A stretch of 64,000 bases of DNA, from NCBI RefSeq assembly GCF_900094555.1, contig NZ_FMAC01000002.1, forward strand, positions 682,001 to 746,000, written 5' to 3'. This document shows positions 16,420-56,752 of this stretch, one piece after another. The notes below the pieces were generated by a model. That model was not told where the DNA came from. It saw nothing but the letters and a program-made list of their open reading frames with translations, and made no database searches. A program made the translations under genes and the position numbers. Source of the DNA: Martinezella hainanensis. GTDB lineage: Bacteria > Pseudomonadota > Alphaproteobacteria > Rhizobiales > Rhizobiaceae. Within the stretch, counting starts at the first letter, position 1; the number at the start of each line of letters is the position of its first letter.

Positions 16420-17739
16420 ATGGCAGATGCCCTCAAAATCGGCATTGCGGGCTTGGGCACCGTTGGTGCCTCGCTCGTCCGCATCATCCAGAGCCGCGCT
16501 AACGAGCTTGCCGTTACCTGCGGTCGTCCCGTCAAGATCGTCGCCGTCACCGCGCGCGATCGCACGCGGGATCGCGGCATCGATTTGACAGGCATCGAAT
16601 GGTTCGGCGGTCCGGTCGATCTCGCGCAGAAGGCCGATATCGACGTTTTCGTCGAGCTGATCGGCGGCTCCGAGGGCGCTGCCAACGCTGCCGTGCGGGC
16701 GGCCCTGGCGCGGGGCCTGCATGTCGTCACCGCCAACAAGGCGCTGCTTGCCTATCACGGCGTCGAGCTTGCGCAGATCGCGGAAGAAAAGGGCGTCCTG
16801 CTTAACTTCGAAGCGGCCGTCGCCGGTGGCATTCCGGTCATCAAGGCGCTGCGCGAATCCCTGACCGGCAATACGATTTCCCGCGTCTACGGCATCATGA
16901 ACGGCACCTGCAACTACATCCTGACCCGGATGGAGAAGGAAGGCCTGTCCTTTGCCGATTGCCTCAAGGAAGCACAGCGTCTCGGCTATGCCGAAGCCGA
17001 TCCGGCTTTCGACATCGAGGGCAACGACACCGCCCACAAGCTCGCCATCCTGACGACGCTTGCCTTCGGCAATCGCATCGCGGCCGACGACATCTATCTC
17101 GAGGGTATCACCAACGTCTCCATCGAGGATATCCGCGCAGCCGCCGATCTCGGCTACCGCATCAAGCTGCTCGGCGTTGCCCAACGCACCGAAAGCGGTA
17201 TCGAACAGCGGGTGCATCCGACCATGGTGCCGCTCGATTCGGTCATCGCTCAGGTCGATGGCGTCACCAATGCCGTGGCGATCGAATCCGATATCCTCGG
17301 TGAACTGTTGATGGTCGGCCCCGGCGCCGGCGGCAATGCGACGGCATCCTCCGTGCTCGGCGACATCGCCGATATCGCTAAGAGCCGTCCGGGCGAGCAG
17401 CGCGTGCCGGTGCTCGGCCATCCTGCCAAGGCGCTGGAGCCCTATCGCAAGGCGCAGATGCAGAGCCATGAAGGCGGCTATTTCATCCGCCTGACGGTGC
17501 TCGATCGTACTGGTGTCTTCGCAAGCGTCGCTACCCGCATGGCGGAAAACCATATTTCGCTCGAATCGATCGTGCAGCGCTCGAAGCAGCATCTGGCACC
17601 CTCCGATCATCAGACGATCATCCTCGTCACCCATGCGACGACGGAGGATTCGGTACGCAAGGCGGTTGCCTCCATCAAGAACGAAGGCTATCTCGTCGGC
17701 GAACCGCAGGTCATCCGTATCGAGCGGCCGAAAGAGTAG
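16420..17739 (+). CDS. hom: Homoserine dehydrogenase
   Basis: A 439-residue enzyme converting aspartate semialdehyde to homoserine for Met and Thr synthesis. N-terminal NAD(P) motif GIAGLGTVG, catalytic-domain signature GIMNGTCNYILTRM, conserved AEADPAFDIEGNDTAHKL with the catalytic lysine, and a C-terminal ACT domain (about 350-430) that implies threonine feedback. ATG at 16420 (MADALKIG) follows CAGGAA. It lies in the same direction as the aminotransferase. A double-palindrome repeat begins at its stop codon and fills most of the gap to recJ. Confidence 0.95.
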   Translation: MADALKIGIAGLGTVGASLVRIIQSRANELAVTCGRPVKIVAVTARDRTRDRGIDLTGIEWFGGPVDLAQKADIDVFVELIGGSEGAANAAVRAALARGLHVVTANKALLAYHGVELAQIAEEKGVLLNFEAAVAGGIPVIKALRESLTGNTISRVYGIMNGTCNYILTRMEKEGLSFADCLKEAQRLGYAEADPAFDIEGNDTAHKLAILTTLAFGNRIAADDIYLEGITNVSIEDIRAAADLGYRIKLLGVAQRTESGIEQRVHPTMVPLDSVIAQVDGVTNAVAIESDILGELLMVGPGAGGNATASSVLGDIADIAKSRPGEQRVPVLGHPAKALEPYRKAQMQSHEGGYFIRLTVLDRTGVFASVATRMAENHISLESIVQRSKQHLAPSDHQTIILVTHATTEDSVRKAVASIKNEGYLVGEPQVIRIERPKE

Positions 17740-17840
17740 AGCAATTCCAGGAAAAGTGCACAGCGGTTTTCCGTCCGGAATTGCGAGAAAATAAACAGAT
17801 AGAGCGGTTTAGAGATTTCGTGAAAAGCTGAACCGCTCTA
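17738..17840 (+). repeat. Double-palindrome intergenic repeat (RIME-like), copy 1
   Basis: Begins at the hom stop codon. Left hairpin: GCAATTCC ... GGAATTGC with an inner GGAAAA/TTTTCC stem. Right hairpin: GAGCGGTT ... AACCGCTC. Related copies are at 36139-36230, 49391-49494 (inverted) and 56649-56752. Confidence 0.85.
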
Positions 17841-35354: not shown

Positions 35355-36140
35355 ATGAATTTGAATGCTCCCCCGATGTCCCATTTTGTCCGAGACGGAT
35401 TGAAGCTCGCCTTTTTCGATGAAGGCGATCCGAACGGCCCGCCGGTGCTGCTCATTCACGGTTTCGCTTCGACTGCGATTGCCAACTGGGTCAATCCCGG
35501 TTGGCTGAAGACGCTCGGTGAGGCGGGTTATCGTGTCATTGCCATCGACAATCGCGGCCACGGTTTGAGTGACAAGCTCTATGATGCCGATGTCTACCAT
35601 CCCTGGATCATGGCCGAGGATGCCCTTGCCCTTCTTGACCATCTGGGCATCTCCGAGGCGCACGTCATGGGCTATTCCATGGGCGCCCGCGTTTCGACCT
35701 TCATGGCCATCGCGCATCCCGATCGCGTCCGCTCGCTGGTGCTGGGGGGCCTTGGTATCGGCATGGTCGAGGGCGTCGGTGACTGGGACCCGATCGCCGA
35801 TGCGCTGGTTGCGCCCTCGCTCGACGATGTCACCCATGCGCGCGGCCGCATGTTCCGCGCTTTTGCCGAGCAGACGAAAAGCGACCGGCAGGCGCTGGCC
35901 GCCTGTATCCAGGGCTCGCGCGATCTGGCGGCAAGAGAGGATGTGGCGAAGATCGAGGCGCCGACCTTGATTGCAGTCGGCACCAAGGACGATATCGCCG
36001 GCTCCGGTCATGAACTCGCCGCTTTGATGCCGAACGCCGAGGCCATAGACATTCCGAACCGTGATCACATGCTCGCTGTCGGCGACAAGATCTTCAAGGC
36101 GGCGGTTCTGGAATTCTACCAGCGTCTCGACAGGCGCTAG
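35355..36140 (+). CDS. Alpha/beta hydrolase
   Basis: A 261-residue alpha/beta hydrolase. The oxyanion-hole motif is LIHGFAS, the nucleophile elbow GYSMGARVS (Ser107 or thereabouts), with DDIAGSG and NRDHMLAVG supplying Asp and His. The substrate is unknown; relatives are esterases or C-C hydrolases. ATG at 35355 (MNLNAPP) is chosen. Its stop codon is the first base set of a double-palindrome repeat. Confidence 0.88.
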   Translation: MNLNAPPMSHFVRDGLKLAFFDEGDPNGPPVLLIHGFASTAIANWVNPGWLKTLGEAGYRVIAIDNRGHGLSDKLYDADVYHPWIMAEDALALLDHLGISEAHVMGYSMGARVSTFMAIAHPDRVRSLVLGGLGIGMVEGVGDWDPIADALVAPSLDDVTHARGRMFRAFAEQTKSDRQALAACIQGSRDLAAREDVAKIEAPTLIAVGTKDDIAGSGHELAALMPNAEAIDIPNRDHMLAVGDKIFKAAVLEFYQRLDRR

Positions 36141-36230
36141 AGCAATTCCAGGAAAAGTGCGCAGCGGTTTTCCGTCCGGAGTTGCGTAAAAAAAGAGATA
36201 GAGCGATGCCGCGAACGAGGAATCGCTCTA
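36139..36230 (+). repeat. Double-palindrome intergenic repeat (RIME-like), copy 2
   Basis: Fills the gap between two convergent genes, starting at the hydrolase stop and ending two bases before the crotonase stop. The left hairpin is conserved (GCAATTCC ... GGAGTTGC, one change); the right hairpin is GAGCGAT ... ATCGCTC, a different sequence from copy 1 but still paired. Confidence 0.85.
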
Positions 36231-46520: not shown

Positions 46521-46733
46521 CTCTTCTGCGGTGCGGCTCCCGGCGTGAAATCTCTGTCATAAAACTGTGATCCAAGTTTCACTATTGTGTGAAATGATCG
46601 GCACGCAGAGGTAAGCGTTACTTCCCTTTGTTTCGATCTTGAATTGCAGTGGGGCGCGCGGGGGCATCGTCTTGGGGGCGATTGGCAATTTTTGCGGTCG
46701 GCTCCCTAGTCTATGGACGAGAAAGCACGACCT

Positions 46734-47813
46734 ATGAGCAATACCGATATATCAGCCGGCTCCAACAATACGCTGCCGGCTGTCACAGCCGACCCGACGG
46801 AAATCGCCCGCATCGGCGACAGCATCGATATCACCGACCGCGCCGGCATCTCGGTCTATGGCGATCGCGCCCAGCAAGCCGTTTCCGACTATTCCGATCG
46901 TATCCTGCGCGAGGTGCGCAATCGCGATCTCGGCGAAGTCGGCAAGCTGCTGACCGATATCATCGTCAAGTCGAAGAAGCTCGATCCGGCCTCACTGAAG
47001 GACGAGGGTTTCCTGTCACGGATGTTTTCCTCGTTCAGGGCCAAGCTGGAGCGCTTCAAGGAGCAGTTCGAGGATGTCGCCGGCCAGATCGACCGCATTG
47101 GCCTCGAGCTCGATCGGCACAAGGACATCCTGCGCCGGGATATTGCTCTCCTCGACGATCTGCATGAGGAGACAAAGCAATCTATCGTGCAGCTCGATGC
47201 CTATGTGCAGGCTGGCAAGGATTTCGCCGAGCGTTTTCGCGCGACCGACCTTCCCCGACTGAAAAGTGCCGCCGATGCAGCCTCGGCCAATCCCGGCGGC
47301 GGCATGCTGGAGGCGCAGATCTATCAGGACAGCCTCCAGGCGCTCGACCGTCTGGAAAAGCGCATATTCTACCTGCAGCAGGCCCGCCAGCTCGGCATCC
47401 AGCAATTGCCGCAGATCAGAATCGTTCAGGCCGGTGATGAAACGCTGATCGAGAACCTGCAGGCAACATCGGCGCTGACCGTACCGGCCTGGAAGCAGAA
47501 GATGGTGATTCTGCTCGGCCTGACCCAGCAGAAATCCGCGCTTGAACTGCAGAAGACCGTCACCGACGCCACGAACGACATGATCCGCCAGGCATCGAAA
47601 ATGATGAAGGATCAGGCGATCGCCATAGAACAGCAATCGCAGCGCGGTATCGTCGATATCGACACGCTTGCCGCCGCCAATCGCGACCTGATCGACACGA
47701 TCGGTGGTGTCCTGAAGGTGCAGGAAGATGGCCGCGCCAAGCGGGCCGAGGCCGAACAGCGAATGCAGAAAATGACCATCGAGCTCAAGAAAGCAATGAT
47801 CGAGGCGCGGTAA
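46734..47813 (+). CDS. TelA/KlaA family toxic anion resistance protein
   Basis: A 359-residue cytoplasmic coiled-coil protein of the TelA family (PF05816-like). Recognisable features are the long helical region (SRMFSSFRAKLERFKEQFEDVAGQIDRIGLELDRHKDILRRDIALLDDLHE), the segment LEKRIFYLQQARQLGIQQLPQIRIVQAGDETLIENLQATSALTVPAWKQKM typical of the family, and GIVDIDTLAAANRDLIDTI near the C-terminus. Family members confer tellurite resistance in some plasmids, though most chromosomal copies have no proven role. ATG at 46734 has AGAAAG upstream; one 21 bases earlier is possible. It is the first of four genes including an SBP-vWA lipoprotein and XpaC. Confidence 0.9.
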   Translation: MSNTDISAGSNNTLPAVTADPTEIARIGDSIDITDRAGISVYGDRAQQAVSDYSDRILREVRNRDLGEVGKLLTDIIVKSKKLDPASLKDEGFLSRMFSSFRAKLERFKEQFEDVAGQIDRIGLELDRHKDILRRDIALLDDLHEETKQSIVQLDAYVQAGKDFAERFRATDLPRLKSAADAASANPGGGMLEAQIYQDSLQALDRLEKRIFYLQQARQLGIQQLPQIRIVQAGDETLIENLQATSALTVPAWKQKMVILLGLTQQKSALELQKTVTDATNDMIRQASKMMKDQAIAIEQQSQRGIVDIDTLAAANRDLIDTIGGVLKVQEDGRAKRAEAEQRMQKMTIELKKAMIEAR

Positions 47814-47818
47814 TTCGC

Positions 47819-49393
47819 ATGACAATCCGCACATTCGTTACCGGCCTGACGCTCGTGGCAGCTCTCGCGCTGAGCGGCTGCGACGTCGGCGGGCAAGGCC
47901 CGAAATTCTCGATCATCTCCGGCTCGGAAAACACGGTTCTTCAGCCGATCGTCGAGGAATTCTGCAAGGAAAAGAAGGCGACCTGCAGCTTCAGCTATGA
48001 AGGCACGCTGGATATCGGCCTGGCGCTCCAGAGCGAGCAGGGCGTCGAGCAGGATGCCGTCTGGCCGGCGTCTGGCGTCTGGGTCGATATGTTCGATACA
48101 AAGCGCCGGGTGAAGTCGCTGACGTCGGTCGCGCAGATGCCCGTCATTCTCGGCGTGCGCAAATCCAAGGCCGAGGCGCTCGGTTGGGTCGGCAGGCCGG
48201 TCTATATGAAAGACATATTGGCGGCGGTGAAGAACGGCTCGCTGAAATTTCTCATGACATCGGCGACGCAATCCAATTCCGGCGCCAGCGCCTATCTGGC
48301 CATGCTGTCGAGCGCACTCGGCAACAAGCCGGTCATCGAGCCTGGCGATCTCGACAAGCCCGATGTCCAGGGCGCGGTTCGCGGGCTACTTGCCGGTGTC
48401 GAGCGTTCCTCGGGCTCGTCCGGCTGGCTTGCGGATCTCTACACGGATTCGGCCGGCAAGGGCGTGCTCTATGACGCCATGTGGAACTACGAGGCGATCC
48501 TGAAGGAAACCAACGACAAGCTGACCGGCATGGGCAAGGAGCCGCTTTACGCAATCTACCCGGCCGATGGCGTCGTCGTTGCCGATTCGCCGATCGGCTT
48601 CGTAGATCACGGGCGAGGGCAGGAGGTTGAGACCTTCTTCAATCAGCTCGTCGACTATTTGCGCTCCGCCCCGGTGCAGAAGCGCATCGCCGATACCGGG
48701 CGTCGCATTCCCCTTTCCGATATCGCCGCCAAGCCGGACCCGACATGGAACTTCGATCCGACCCGGATCGTGACGGCTATCCGCATGCCGGAGCCCGCCA
48801 TGATCCGCCAGGCGCTGGATCTCTATCAGGTTGCATTGCGCAAGCCGTCGCTGACCGCCCTCTGCCTCGATTTTTCGGGCTCGATGGCGGGCAAGGGCGA
48901 GGAACAGCTCCAGGCGGCCATGCAGTTCCTGTTCAATCCGGATGAAACAGGCAAGGTTCTGGCGCAATGGACGCCTGCCGATCGCATCATGGTCATTCCC
49001 TTCGACGCCAATGTGCGAACGACCTTTGAGGGCACGGGAAATCCGGCTCAGCAGAAAATGCTGGTCGACAAGGTTTCTCACCAGCGCGCCGGCGGCGGCA
49101 CGGACATGTATGCCTGCGCGAGCCGGGCGCTTGACTGGATGAAGGGCACAGGAGATCTGTCATCCTATCTGCCGGCAATCGTCATCATGACCGATGGAAA
49201 GTCTGATGATGCCAATGGCGATTTCATGAGCCGGTGGGCGGCGGTCAACCCGCATGTGCCCGTGTTCGGTATCACCTTCGGCGATGCGGATAAGCGGCAG
49301 CTCGATGCGCTCGCGCAGGAAACCGCGGCGCGTGTCTTCGATGGCCGCGGTGATCTGGTCAGCGCATTCCGGGCAGTGCGCGGCTATAACTAG
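47819..49393 (+). CDS. Lipoprotein with solute-binding domain fused to a von Willebrand factor A domain
   Basis: A 524-residue protein. The signal peptide ends in lipobox LALSGC (Cys21). Residues 30-320 form a periplasmic binding domain of SBP_bac_11 style, with VWPAS (81-85), SNSG (152-155) and YAIYPADGVVVAD (244-256). Residues 340-520 are a vWA domain whose metal-ion dependent adhesion site is complete: D-F-S-G-S (351-355), the Thr in GGGTD (428), and DG (459-460). No ABC permease or ATPase is nearby, so a transport role is doubtful; a sensing or scaffolding role at the membrane is plausible. It follows telA by 5 bp. Confidence 0.88.
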   Translation: MTIRTFVTGLTLVAALALSGCDVGGQGPKFSIISGSENTVLQPIVEEFCKEKKATCSFSYEGTLDIGLALQSEQGVEQDAVWPASGVWVDMFDTKRRVKSLTSVAQMPVILGVRKSKAEALGWVGRPVYMKDILAAVKNGSLKFLMTSATQSNSGASAYLAMLSSALGNKPVIEPGDLDKPDVQGAVRGLLAGVERSSGSSGWLADLYTDSAGKGVLYDAMWNYEAILKETNDKLTGMGKEPLYAIYPADGVVVADSPIGFVDHGRGQEVETFFNQLVDYLRSAPVQKRIADTGRRIPLSDIAAKPDPTWNFDPTRIVTAIRMPEPAMIRQALDLYQVALRKPSLTALCLDFSGSMAGKGEEQLQAAMQFLFNPDETGKVLAQWTPADRIMVIPFDANVRTTFEGTGNPAQQKMLVDKVSHQRAGGGTDMYACASRALDWMKGTGDLSSYLPAIVIMTDGKSDDANGDFMSRWAAVNPHVPVFGITFGDADKRQLDALAQETAARVFDGRGDLVSAFRAVRGYN

Positions 49394-49494
49394 GGCACTT
49401 CTGCTTTGAACGAAGCAACAGAAATGCTCTATCTCTTTGTTTTCACGCAATTCCGGACGCGAAGCCGCTTCGCACCTTTGCTGGAATTGTTCTA
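49391..49494 (-). repeat. Double-palindrome intergenic repeat (RIME-like), copy 4 (inverted)
   Basis: Inverted relative to the other three copies. Read on the minus strand: CAATTCC ... GGAATTG conserved left hairpin, then GAGCATTTCTG ... CAGAAGTGCCC as a different right hairpin. It fills the gap between the SBP-vWA and xpaC stop/start, ending 9 bp before the xpaC ATG. Confidence 0.75.
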
Positions 49495-49502
49495 GGACGA
49501 TA

Positions 49503-50120
49503 ATGCGCAATTGGTTCGGCAATGACTGGAATTGGATCGTGGCGGGGCTTGCCGCCGCCATCGTCGTGCCTTTGCTCAGCTTCTTTGCCGGCATGCCGAT
49601 ATGGATCGCCGCGATCATCGGTCTTTTCGTTTTCGTCGGCCTGATCTTCGTGCTCGCGCCGAAGCGCATGTTCGAGGGGCTGGATGCCAAGGCGATCGGC
49701 CGGGGACGCATCGAATTTGCCCGTGACCTGTTGAGCGCTGCGGCACCTGCCGCCGACAGGCTCGAGGCATCGGCAAAACAGATCGGCAGCAAGGACGTGG
49801 CAAAGCGGGTTCGGCATCTGGCGGAAATCGCCGCCGACGTCTTCGCCAAGGTGGAGGCCAATCCGGAAAGTGCCGGCACGGTCCGGCGATTCCTTAGCTA
49901 TTATTTGCCAAGGGCGGCTGAAGTGGCGGAGGGATTTGCCGTTATCGAGGCGAAGCGGCAGCCGGATGCCGCACGCCTGCAGGAGGTCGGCCTCGTACTG
50001 ACCAAGCTGGAAGACGCGTTCGTACATTATTCCGACAGCCTGGTCGAAGACAGGCTCGATACGCTTGATACGGAGCTGCGCCTCATACAGGCCTCGCTCA
50101 AAGAGGACATAGGACGCTGA
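49503..50120 (+). CDS. XpaC-like membrane protein (5-bromo-4-chloroindolyl phosphate hydrolysis family)
   Basis: A 205-residue protein with two hydrophobic helices near the N-terminus (about residues 10-30 and 33-52) and a helical cytoplasmic domain (ASAKQIGSKDVAKRVRHLAEIAADVFAKVEANPESAGTVRRFLSYYLPRA). The pattern matches the XpaC family, which in several bacteria is encoded next to TelA. The ribosome binding site lies in AGGA just after the repeat. Its stop overlaps the start of the next gene (ATGA). Function unknown; the name is historical. Confidence 0.82.
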   Translation: MRNWFGNDWNWIVAGLAAAIVVPLLSFFAGMPIWIAAIIGLFVFVGLIFVLAPKRMFEGLDAKAIGRGRIEFARDLLSAAAPAADRLEASAKQIGSKDVAKRVRHLAEIAADVFAKVEANPESAGTVRRFLSYYLPRAAEVAEGFAVIEAKRQPDAARLQEVGLVLTKLEDAFVHYSDSLVEDRLDTLDTELRLIQASLKEDIGR

Positions 50121-51226
50121 TGGCCATTTCCCGCCGCGCTTTTGGAGTAGGGCTTCTTGCCGCCGGTGTCGCAGGGACCGGAGGCTATTTCGCCGTCAAG
50201 GACCGGCCCGAGCTGCAGGGGCTGCTCGGCAACAGCACCAAGCTCTTCGGCTTCATCGGCGGCGAGAAGGAAGCATTCCTCGCCGATCAGGATGTGATCT
50301 CGGCGCTGCACGGCCATGGGCTCGAAATCAACAGCCGTGTCGCGGGCTCCGTGGAGATGGTGCGGGAGCAGGCGCTTCTGTCGCAAAATCCGGCCTTCCT
50401 GTGGCCCTCCTCGTCGATCATGGTCGATATCGCCCGGCAGGGTGGCATCAAGATCCGTAACGACCGCGTCATCCTCAACACGCCCGTCGTCGTCTATTCC
50501 TGGCAGCCTGTGGTCGACGGATTGACCAAGGCGGGGCTCGTCACCACGACGCCAGAGGGGCAACACCAGCTCGATCTCAAGGCGCTGCTGGATGCCGTGC
50601 TTGCGGGGACGAATTGGTCGAAGCTTGGCGTCAATTCGCTCTATGGTCAGGCGAGGATCGTCTCGACCGACCCGAATCGTTCCAATTCCGGCTTCATGTT
50701 TTCCGGCCTGGTGCTGAGTCTCTTGAGCGGCAACGTGGCGAGCGCGGACGCTCTCGCGCAGTTCGGCGACAAGGCCCAGGCAATTTTCCGCAACATGGGT
50801 TTCAAGTCGTCGTCGTCGGGCAAGCTGTTCGAGCAGTATCTCGCCGGCGGCATTGGTGGCGAACCGATGATCGTCGGCTACGAGAATCAGCTGGTGGAAT
50901 GGATCATCGCCGATCCGCAGCGCTGGAAGCGGGTGCAGGCGAGCAACAGCGCCAAGCCCGTCGTGCTCTATCCGCACCCGACCGTCTATTCCGCGCATCC
51001 GCTCATCGCCATCGACGAACAGGTCGATCGCATGATTGAGGCTCTCATCAGTCCGCGATTGCAGGAGCTCGCCTGGACCAAGCACGGCTTCCGCGGGCCG
51101 CTCGGCACGGCGACCGGCGATGCCGACAGCGCGATTGCCGGTCTGCTGCCCGCAGAAATCGATGCCGTATTGCCCATGCCGGACGCCAATGTCATGCTGG
51201 CGCTGCTCAACAAACTCGCCGCTTGA
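50120..51226 (+). CDS. Tat-type periplasmic solute-binding protein, paralogue of the SBP-vWA domain
   Basis: A 368-residue protein. The N-terminus MAISRRAFGVGLL looks like a twin-arginine signal. The body shows the same landmarks as the SBP part of the preceding lipoprotein: FLWPSSS (94-99; compare VWPAS), TPVVVYSWQPVVDGL, SNSG (188-191) and PMIVGYENQLVEW. So it is a paralogue of that domain without vWA. It overlaps the xpaC stop by 4 bp, and it ends the cluster. The ligand is unknown. A possible weak terminator CCGGGA/TCCGG with a T-run lies at 51322-51344. Confidence 0.82.
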   Translation: MAISRRAFGVGLLAAGVAGTGGYFAVKDRPELQGLLGNSTKLFGFIGGEKEAFLADQDVISALHGHGLEINSRVAGSVEMVREQALLSQNPAFLWPSSSIMVDIARQGGIKIRNDRVILNTPVVVYSWQPVVDGLTKAGLVTTTPEGQHQLDLKALLDAVLAGTNWSKLGVNSLYGQARIVSTDPNRSNSGFMFSGLVLSLLSGNVASADALAQFGDKAQAIFRNMGFKSSSSGKLFEQYLAGGIGGEPMIVGYENQLVEWIIADPQRWKRVQASNSAKPVVLYPHPTVYSAHPLIAIDEQVDRMIEALISPRLQELAWTKHGFRGPLGTATGDADSAIAGLLPAEIDAVLPMPDANVMLALLNKLAA

Positions 51227-56645: not shown

Positions 56646-56648
56646 TAC

Positions 56649-56752
56649 TAGAGCAATTCCAGGAAAAGCGCGCCGCGTTTTTCCGTCCGGAATTGTGAGA
56701 AAACAGAAAGATGGAGCGGTTCGGAGCTTCCGTGAAAGTCGAACCGCTCTAA
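56649..56752 (+). repeat. Double-palindrome intergenic repeat (RIME-like), copy 3
   Basis: Left hairpin GCAATTCC ... GGAATTG with inner GGAAAA-like/TTTTTCC, right hairpin GAGCGGTTCG ... CGAACCGCTC. It fills most of the cdsA-rseP gap. The right-arm sequence differs from copies 1, 2 and 4 with preserved pairing. Confidence 0.85.

Follow-up and report, generated by a model that had tools for sequence, protein, structure and literature searches.

TelA and XpaC are widespread proteins whose names come from incidental phenotypes (tellurite and indolyl-phosphate hydrolysis), and their genes are already known to occur as TelA-XpaC (YaaN-XpaC) pairs. Here we describe a locus in which two further genes stand with them. 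It occupies positions 46734-51226, plus strand, of a 64,000-nucleotide stretch of the Martinezella hainanensis genome (contig NZ_FMAC01000002.1, positions 682,001 to 746,000; the whole stretch is called the window below) and encodes, in this order, TelA, a lipoprotein in which a solute-binding protein (SBP) domain is fused to a von Willebrand factor A (vWA) domain (SBP-vWA, or the fusion), XpaC, and a second SBP with a twin-arginine motif. An earlier note, made from the sequence alone, had read the four co-directional genes in just this way, and Pfam, predicted models and motifs confirm it. Together they make up a single conserved module, whose putative membership of the Pho regulon within the Hyphomicrobiales is well supported by the sequences upstream of it. 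We give about an even chance to a wider reading, namely that they form a Pho-regulon operon for a permease-less receptor complex, which would bind a phosphorus oxyanion or ester and be coupled to XpaC and TelA through the metal ion-dependent adhesion site (MIDAS) of the vWA domain.

TelA-XpaC pairs, which make up 10 of the 19 alphaproteobacterial TelA loci examined, resemble the module in having TelA beside XpaC but, unlike it, have no SBPs (by profiles) and no PHO box. On the receptor side, the first Foldseek match of the SBP-vWA model is 6lkg (E 3.0e-12), an entry titled as a two-component system protein mediating signal transduction, which we take to be the sensor SBP HptA. HptA works with a histidine kinase, whereas no gene for a kinase of this sort was found among the module neighbours tested. 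The vWA part of the fusion profile also matches the calcium-channel subunit alpha2-delta-1 (E about 4e-7). Alpha2-delta subunits combine an anchored extracytoplasmic ligand domain with a MIDAS, but that domain is a Cache domain, and since both ligand domain and partner differ from those of the module the analogy is one of design only.

The Ter system (TerB/C/D/F, TelA) likewise contains TelA and, according to PMC7824862, counts a vWA protein, TerF, among its members; in the module, in contrast, the vWA domain belongs to an exported lipoprotein and is fused to an SBP. The TerD domain had no match in the source genome, while the control search matched in Bacillus subtilis, so by this mark the locus is not a Ter system. 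The SBP-vWA architecture is already named in annotation, where a Variovorax homologue with the same two-domain order is entered as 'substrate-binding and VWA domain-containing protein'; the phrase was not found in a full-text literature search. That search, which did not cover Anantharaman 2012 on Ter, gave no paper recognised as treating this set of four genes or PhoB control of TelA. From locus names and context rather than from sequence, the vWA proteins of PMC11103875, PMC11406972 and PMC3188799 appear to be other genes.

Linkage, distribution and descent

The TelA and XpaC family assignments both lie well above the curated cut-offs of Pfam, with 311.2 bits against 30 for TelA (PF05816) and 101.9 bits against 29.8 for XpaC (PF10112), in which two N-terminal hydrophobic segments, seen by eye, precede a helical domain. 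The fusion, matched by PF13531 (E 7.5e-10) and PF13519 (E 9.3e-9), i.e. SBP_bac_11 and VWA_2, consists of a type II SBP domain at about residues 26-342 and a vWA domain at about 342-524, and is 96% identical to its homologue in Rhizobium tropici PTD1, to which species the source genome is close. Pfam and NCBIfam searches gave no match for the second SBP, and NCBIfam named none of the four proteins above cut-off; that gene 4 encodes an SBP is supported by its predicted model and by its match, profile against profile, to the gene 2 SBP (hhalign probability 99, E 3.6e-18). The two are paralogous, as had been proposed. PADLOC-DB, searched at E 0.01, returned no family for any of the four proteins, which by this test are not known anti-phage defence proteins. 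TelA has one match in the whole source genome.

A contig scan with a five-sequence profile gave 87 confirmed loci, the best 80 of which were analysed. By tblastn, TelA and XpaC were each found at 79 of these and the second SBP at 78, and wherever the genes were present they kept the order TelA, SBP-vWA, XpaC, SBP; with four more loci added, the counts become 83, 83 and 82 of 84. The exceptions are L079, at a contig end, and L093, an orphan, and in one further locus, of Mesorhizobium sophorae (L061 10126-10323), the frame of the second SBP stops at 65 residues, TelA, fusion and XpaC being of normal length. The module occurs in Rhizobium, Neorhizobium, Mesorhizobium, Bradyrhizobium, Bosea and Pseudochelatococcus, and in metagenome-assembled genomes (MAGs) assigned to Devosia and Xanthobacter. 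At 40 of the 84 loci it has the rpsB-tsf neighbourhood of the window, but flanks differ by genus, and the open reading frames (ORFs) tested elsewhere match either unrelated housekeeping genes or nothing. Recurrence of one gene order across several families with different flanks is more than chance, and the earlier note's proposal of an envelope system, which a lack of linkage outside the genus would have refuted, survives the survey, the homologues being linked well beyond it. No fifth conserved gene emerged convincingly when flanking ORFs were clustered; the sole cluster spanning four groups was a chained one (348 ORFs).

Spacing within the locus agrees in part with what had been claimed. TelA and SBP-vWA are indeed 5 nt apart, while XpaC and the second SBP overlap by 1 nt (TGATG) and not by four. 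The repeat of about 100 bp described between SBP-vWA and XpaC is also there, but it does not divide the locus into two pairs. The gap between these genes is 7 or 8 nt at 45 of 84 loci and exceeds 60 bp in only 7 of 79 relatives; in alignment the block is missing from, e.g., R. tropici PTD1, and in L021 a block of different sequence is found at the same site. Since a long gap is rare and one of 7-8 nt usual, the repeat is an insertion present in few relatives and no functional border, and the four genes are read as one operon.

Full-length SBP-vWA was found in at least eight of 349 Pseudomonadota genomes, this being the count of those found when up to four or five first-look candidates were scored per genome, and five of the eight belong to one family (f1) and so are not independent. 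The second SBP was in the same eight genomes and in no other, at neighbouring coordinates, among the matches listed. The fusion profile matched 142 of the 349 genomes, the listed matches outside the eight being to the vWA or to other short parts. Genome sampling covers Pseudomonadota, and plasmid records are the sole source of the cases in Actinomycetota and Deinococcota. Within the order, a fusion homologue (E <1e-180) was present in 5 of 150 genomes, the window's included, and TelA in 8; within the class, TelA matched 19 of 190 genomes, 17 of them above cut-off. By profiles, 19 of 21 TelA neighbourhoods of the class comprise five four-gene loci (in one of which, L169, XpaC is weakly matched), ten TelA-XpaC pairs, two loci with TelA and an XpaC-like gene of the permuted type described below, and two with TelA alone; two weak matches below cut-off (G645, G562) stand outside this count. 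One genome, G178, holds both a TelA-XpaC pair and a four-gene locus.

A second, permuted arrangement (SBP, TelA, SBP-vWA, third gene) was observed in plasmid records of Sphaerotilus, Variovorax and Nonomuraea and in a genome of another class (G330); in Variovorax a short annotated ORF lies between TelA and the fusion, and in Deinococcus the order is SBP, SBP-vWA, third gene. The third gene has no Pfam match and encodes two N-terminal hydrophobic segments (by eye). It is likely, if not firmly so, to be akin to XpaC, judging from an hhalign probability of 46 between the two and from a gene in L131 that both profiles match (2.8e-13 and 1.5e-5). Two observations on outlying loci may be added here. 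On two Streptomyces megaplasmids a distant relative of the second SBP stands alone (L202 7770-8996, L203 7767-8993), profiles finding none of the other three module genes within 8 kb. The Variovorax module (L097 5091-17452) lies about 2.4 kb from plasmid genes whose annotation is Wadjet-type (JetA family, SbcC/MukB-like).

In a joint tree of 21 fusion SBP domains and 21 second SBPs, built by a quick method with SH-aLRT (approximate likelihood-ratio test) support only and a midpoint root, the two kinds fall on opposite sides of a fully supported branch. Since each keeps to its own side, the pair would most simply derive from one old duplication and have stayed together since. The fusions divide by arrangement (support 93 and 94). 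Of the second SBPs, those of the permuted type form a clade (100), whereas those of the first type do not come out as one. The TelA tree, which leaves out L161 and L170 (<200 residues) and L141, and in which long branches limit detail, also has a deep split between arrangements. In it a supported clade that excludes the pairs holds 13 of 15 first-arrangement four-gene TelAs and the orphan L163; the four-gene loci L168 and L169 lie outside that clade on long branches.

The PHO box upstream of TelA

Between TelA and the EipB-like gene upstream of it the window has CTGTCATAAAACTGTGAT (46554-46571), with a third unit, GTTTCAC, in register. A PHO box, as described in PMC4415409, consists of two 7-nt repeats with a 4-nt spacer, the repeat being CTGTCAT in Escherichia coli. 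The motif was first noticed by eye in an alignment of upstream regions and tested afterwards, with a single consensus (CTGTCAT-N4-CTGTCAY) that is the textbook, E. coli-type one and was not fitted to these sites. Of 78 upstream regions (the window and those 77 of 79 loci with a TelA frame that had enough upstream sequence), 42 scored at least 12/14; of 780 dinucleotide shuffles 2 did so, and of 1450 stretches of 300 bp taken at random from the same loci 3. This score was reached by 21/40 regions in Rhizobium/Neorhizobium, 9/21 in Mesorhizobium, 8/10 in Bradyrhizobium, 1/1 in Bosea, 1/1 in the Devosia MAG, 1/2 in other MAGs and by the window itself (1/1). Outside Rhizobium the sites are mostly 33-79 nt from the start, and box-bearing loci of Rhizobium, Mesorhizobium, Bradyrhizobium, Bosea and the Devosia MAG have differing flanking genes.

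Loci without SBPs, used as controls (10 TelA-XpaC pairs, 2 with TelA and an XpaC-like gene, 1 orphan TelA), scored 8-10. The four-gene loci of four Alphaproteobacteria outside the order scored 12 (L130), 11 (L164), 10 (L168) and 9 (L169), with the sites of L130 and L164 about 45 nt before TelA; the site scoring 12/14, in G178 from another order, stands 46 nt before TelA. Scores of 11 were also given by L131, where the site overlaps a possible start, and L134 (11/14), and scores of at most 10 by L097, L098 and L099. Candidate motifs of the EcfG, RpoE, RpoH and sigma70 types were rejected, being found before TelA at 0, 1, 2 and 0 of 79 loci, with mononucleotide-shuffle means of 1.15, 0.75, 1.1 and 1.0. 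The PHO box is the sole shared cis signal found there, and because of it we read the trigger as phosphate starvation, and not as the envelope or toxic-anion stress that the earlier note had proposed.

The source genome (7.25 Mb) has 11 sites with at most one mismatch, the window's included, against 2 for the reversed pattern, which is a fairer comparison than that made with the exact pattern (3 sites, control 0), biased by having been widened by one letter for the window site. A PHO-box-like site precedes by 38 nt the frame of a phytase-like esterase-domain gene (L193 1501-1557, G000:C10:809752), and both genes of PF12849, presumably the family that holds PstS, are preceded by a 12/14 site. 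An independent phosphate link is found in a betaproteobacterium: on a Sphaerotilus plasmid (L096 2563-9206) a PhoX gene (PF05787, E 1.1e-169), with a 12/14 site upstream, ends 4 bp before the module.

A PhoX gene in line with the module, like the Pho-type promoter, would also suit a role as transport accessory in trans, the SBPs handing a phosphorus compound to a distant permease (Pst, Ugp or Phn type) or to PhoX, at a site that XpaC and TelA organise. SBPs normally serve ABC transporters, and L086, L092 and L091 each have, 2-5 kb upstream, a frame that looks by eye, from its Walker motif, like an ABC-type ATPase. However, neither the eight window genes tested nor the 20 long ORFs tested at 10 loci, within 2.5 kb (open frames taken without gene calling, five of them without a Pfam match and maybe antisense), included an ABC permease or ATPase gene, in agreement with the absence noted before, so that the adjacent permease and ATPase genes of an ABC transporter SBP are lacking. 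Moreover, two SBPs together with vWA, TelA and XpaC are unlike a transporter, and a vWA domain fused to an SBP should hinder docking to a permease. We regard delivery in trans as rather unlikely, while treating it as a serious rival of the receptor complex.

Two SBPs and a MIDAS domain

Anatomy was scored on 79 of the 80 fusions (one of <500 residues was set aside, as was the 65-residue second SBP of L061). All 79 have a lipobox. The MIDAS, which had been described as complete (DxSxS, T, D), is so in the window and is intact in 78 of the 79 relatives. The broken one belongs to the orphan L093 (4379-5950), from a Xanthobacteraceae MAG, where the fusion stands without partner genes on a 6.6-kb contig and the second Ser is replaced by E, T by S and D by N; loss of the MIDAS without partners fits a docking role of the vWA domain, in a single case. 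In the second SBP the twin-arginine motif S/T-R-R-x-[FLVT] is found in the window and in 77/77 full-length relatives, so that export by the twin-arginine translocation (Tat) route is predicted. Because four distant homologues are without the full motif, the constant feature of this protein, as far as its sequences indicate, is the N-terminal anchor and not the Tat route.

The two SBP families, compared over 13 and 14 rows, have the same residue at >=75% in 25 aligned columns, which include GxE, G, WP, SNSG, SS, YE and YP and, among them, two conserved glutamates. In the predicted models (mean predicted local distance difference test, pLDDT, 84.2 and 84.6) these common motifs lie at or near strand ends and helix starts, the junctions at which type II SBPs bind their ligands. 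As the predicted cleft residues are the same, both SBPs probably bind one common ligand. Each model has the type II solute-binding fold, the fusion SBP matching 5um2 (Z 27.3 over 286 residues, root-mean-square deviation 3.1) and the second SBP 2qry (Z 22.7, 275 residues, 3.2).

By VIA-align, sulfate-binding proteins are nearest to the fusion SBP (Z 27.3 and 26.9, the next being 24.9). A fold closest to oxyanion binders may also be taken to favour protection of the envelope, or against toxic oxyanions, during phosphate starvation: the module would shield the cell during the remodelling of membrane lipids or when arsenate or tellurite enters through high-affinity phosphate uptake, with the SBPs holding the toxic anion. 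The history of the TelA family points the same way, as PMC12791056 reports a Listeria lmo1967 disruption mutant with susceptibility increased 4-fold to nisin and 2-fold to tellurite, and PMC7824862 gives a proposal that TelA builds structures beneath the membrane. In the window, too, an EipB-like gene stands upstream of TelA. Yet no tellurite or arsenate gene was found among the flanking ORFs tested, and TerD is absent from the genome. Protection is, in our judgement, another serious rival of the receptor complex, with a fairly small chance of being correct.

For the second SBP the nearest structures are almost tied (ThiB 22.7, sulfate-binding 21.8, ferric-binding 21.5), and AfuA and P5PA are among the top Foldseek matches of the SBP-vWA model. 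A PDB sequence search with the gene 2 SBP alone gave no match, and one with a profile gave P5PA (E 0.002), the HptA entry (0.0067) and a ferric-binding protein (0.026), too weak for naming a ligand. PstS was not among the matches listed by Foldseek or VIA-align, an absence that carries no evidential weight. One may consider that the module senses an unrelated ligand (a metal chelate, a polyamine or something thiamin-like) and that phosphate acts on it as a secondary input, in one bacterial group. Such a ligand would agree with the near-equal Z scores of ThiB and ferric-binding proteins, with the two shared glutamates and with the four-gene loci outside Hyphomicrobiales that have no PHO box. 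Against it stand the fact that no other shared cis signal was found and the PhoX gene in line with the betaproteobacterial module, and we hold it to be quite improbable.

The phosphorus-receptor reading could work as follows. On phosphate depletion, phosphorylated PhoB would bind the PHO box and switch the operon on. XpaC, with two membrane passes, and TelA, in the cytoplasm, would make up the base of an inner-membrane complex, as in TelA-XpaC pairs, while the two paralogous SBPs would stand in the periplasm, one on its own N-terminal anchor and the other held by lipid together with the vWA domain. Both clefts would take up one common ligand, for which a phosphorus oxyanion or a phosphate ester is the likeliest candidate. 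Through its MIDAS metal ion the vWA domain would dock on a partner's acidic residue and so join the two receptors, or lock the complex, depending on the ligand, and the state of the receptors might pass through XpaC to TelA as cytoplasmic receiver. Gene content, linkage, shared cleft motifs, intact MIDAS and PHO box are the observed part of this reading; that PhoB itself controls the operon, that the products form a complex, what they bind and which way the signal runs are what we infer from it.

Several observations weigh against the receptor complex or its phosphate control. In Deinococcus TelA was not found on the plasmid of the module, and in G453 SBP-vWA, XpaC and SBP are together with TelA elsewhere in the genome. 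The fold neighbours include ferric-, thiamin-, polyamine- and sugar-phosphate-binding proteins and so suggest more than one kind of ligand. As for the promoter, 36 of the 78 Hyphomicrobiales regions score below 12, both Pseudochelatococcus loci are without a good box (0/2), and the 40 Rhizobium/Neorhizobium regions are homologous and hence not independent. Of the 10 other sites in the source genome, one precedes an evident phosphate gene, the phytase-like one; others precede DUF2794, hydrolase, NAD synthase, porin, transport and no-Pfam genes, and one is intragenic. With the same single consensus, modules elsewhere score 10 (Variovorax), 9 (Nonomuraea), 10 (Deinococcus) and 11 (G330), and since several four-gene loci outside Hyphomicrobiales have no PHO box, phosphate control is probably not universal.

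In its fullest form the proposal is of a new transmembrane receptor in which two paralogous SBPs for one phosphorus ligand are joined, depending on ligand and metal, through a MIDAS vWA domain and signal through XpaC to a TelA scaffold, with neither permease nor kinase, as part, in rhizobia, of the phosphate-starvation response. We advance this version tentatively, as a possibility that is more doubtful than the operon and complex themselves. If true, a pair of paralogous receptors that have one cleft signature in common, with a MIDAS vWA domain on one of them, would be a new kind of ligand sensor free of kinase and transporter. In any case, the PHO-boxed four-gene module suggests under what growth condition, with which regulator and on what class of ligand the role of TelA and XpaC can be tested, and rhizobia that are harmless laboratory organisms would serve for it.

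Features and neighbours in the window

Table 1. Positions of the module genes and associated elements within the window
Feature	Position	Strand	Details
PHO box	46554..46582	+	CTGTCAT-AAAA-CTGTGAT (46554-46571), 13/14 consensus; third 11-nt repeat unit GTTTCAC (46576-46582)
TelA	46734..47813	+	359 aa; PF05816 E 1.1e-92; signal peptide not seen by eye
SBP-vWA lipoprotein	47819..49393	+	524 aa; lipobox LSGC, Cys21
MIDAS codons	48869..49195	+	D351-x-S353-x-S355 (48869-48883), T428 (49100-49102), D459 (49193-49195)
Dispersed intergenic repeat	49396..49500	+	between SBP-vWA and XpaC; outside ancestral operon
XpaC	49503..50120	+	205 aa; PF10112 (Halogen_Hydrol) E 5.8e-29
Second SBP	50120..51226	+	368 aa; N-terminal anchor, predicted; twin-arginine motif SRRAF

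The eight window genes tested as neighbours are FemAB-like, GDPD, RidA-like, EipB-like, ribosomal S2, EF-Ts, an amino-acid-kinase-family gene, presumably PyrH, and, further off, a Clp-type AAA gene. The repeat inserted between SBP-vWA and XpaC has at least 40 matches in the genome, its own copy included (40 of 80 first-look candidates scored), and folds better than its shuffles (z -2.5). It is probably a rhizobial intergenic mosaic element, and three further partial copies of it lie in the window at 17737-17805, 36137-36204 and 56648-56717.

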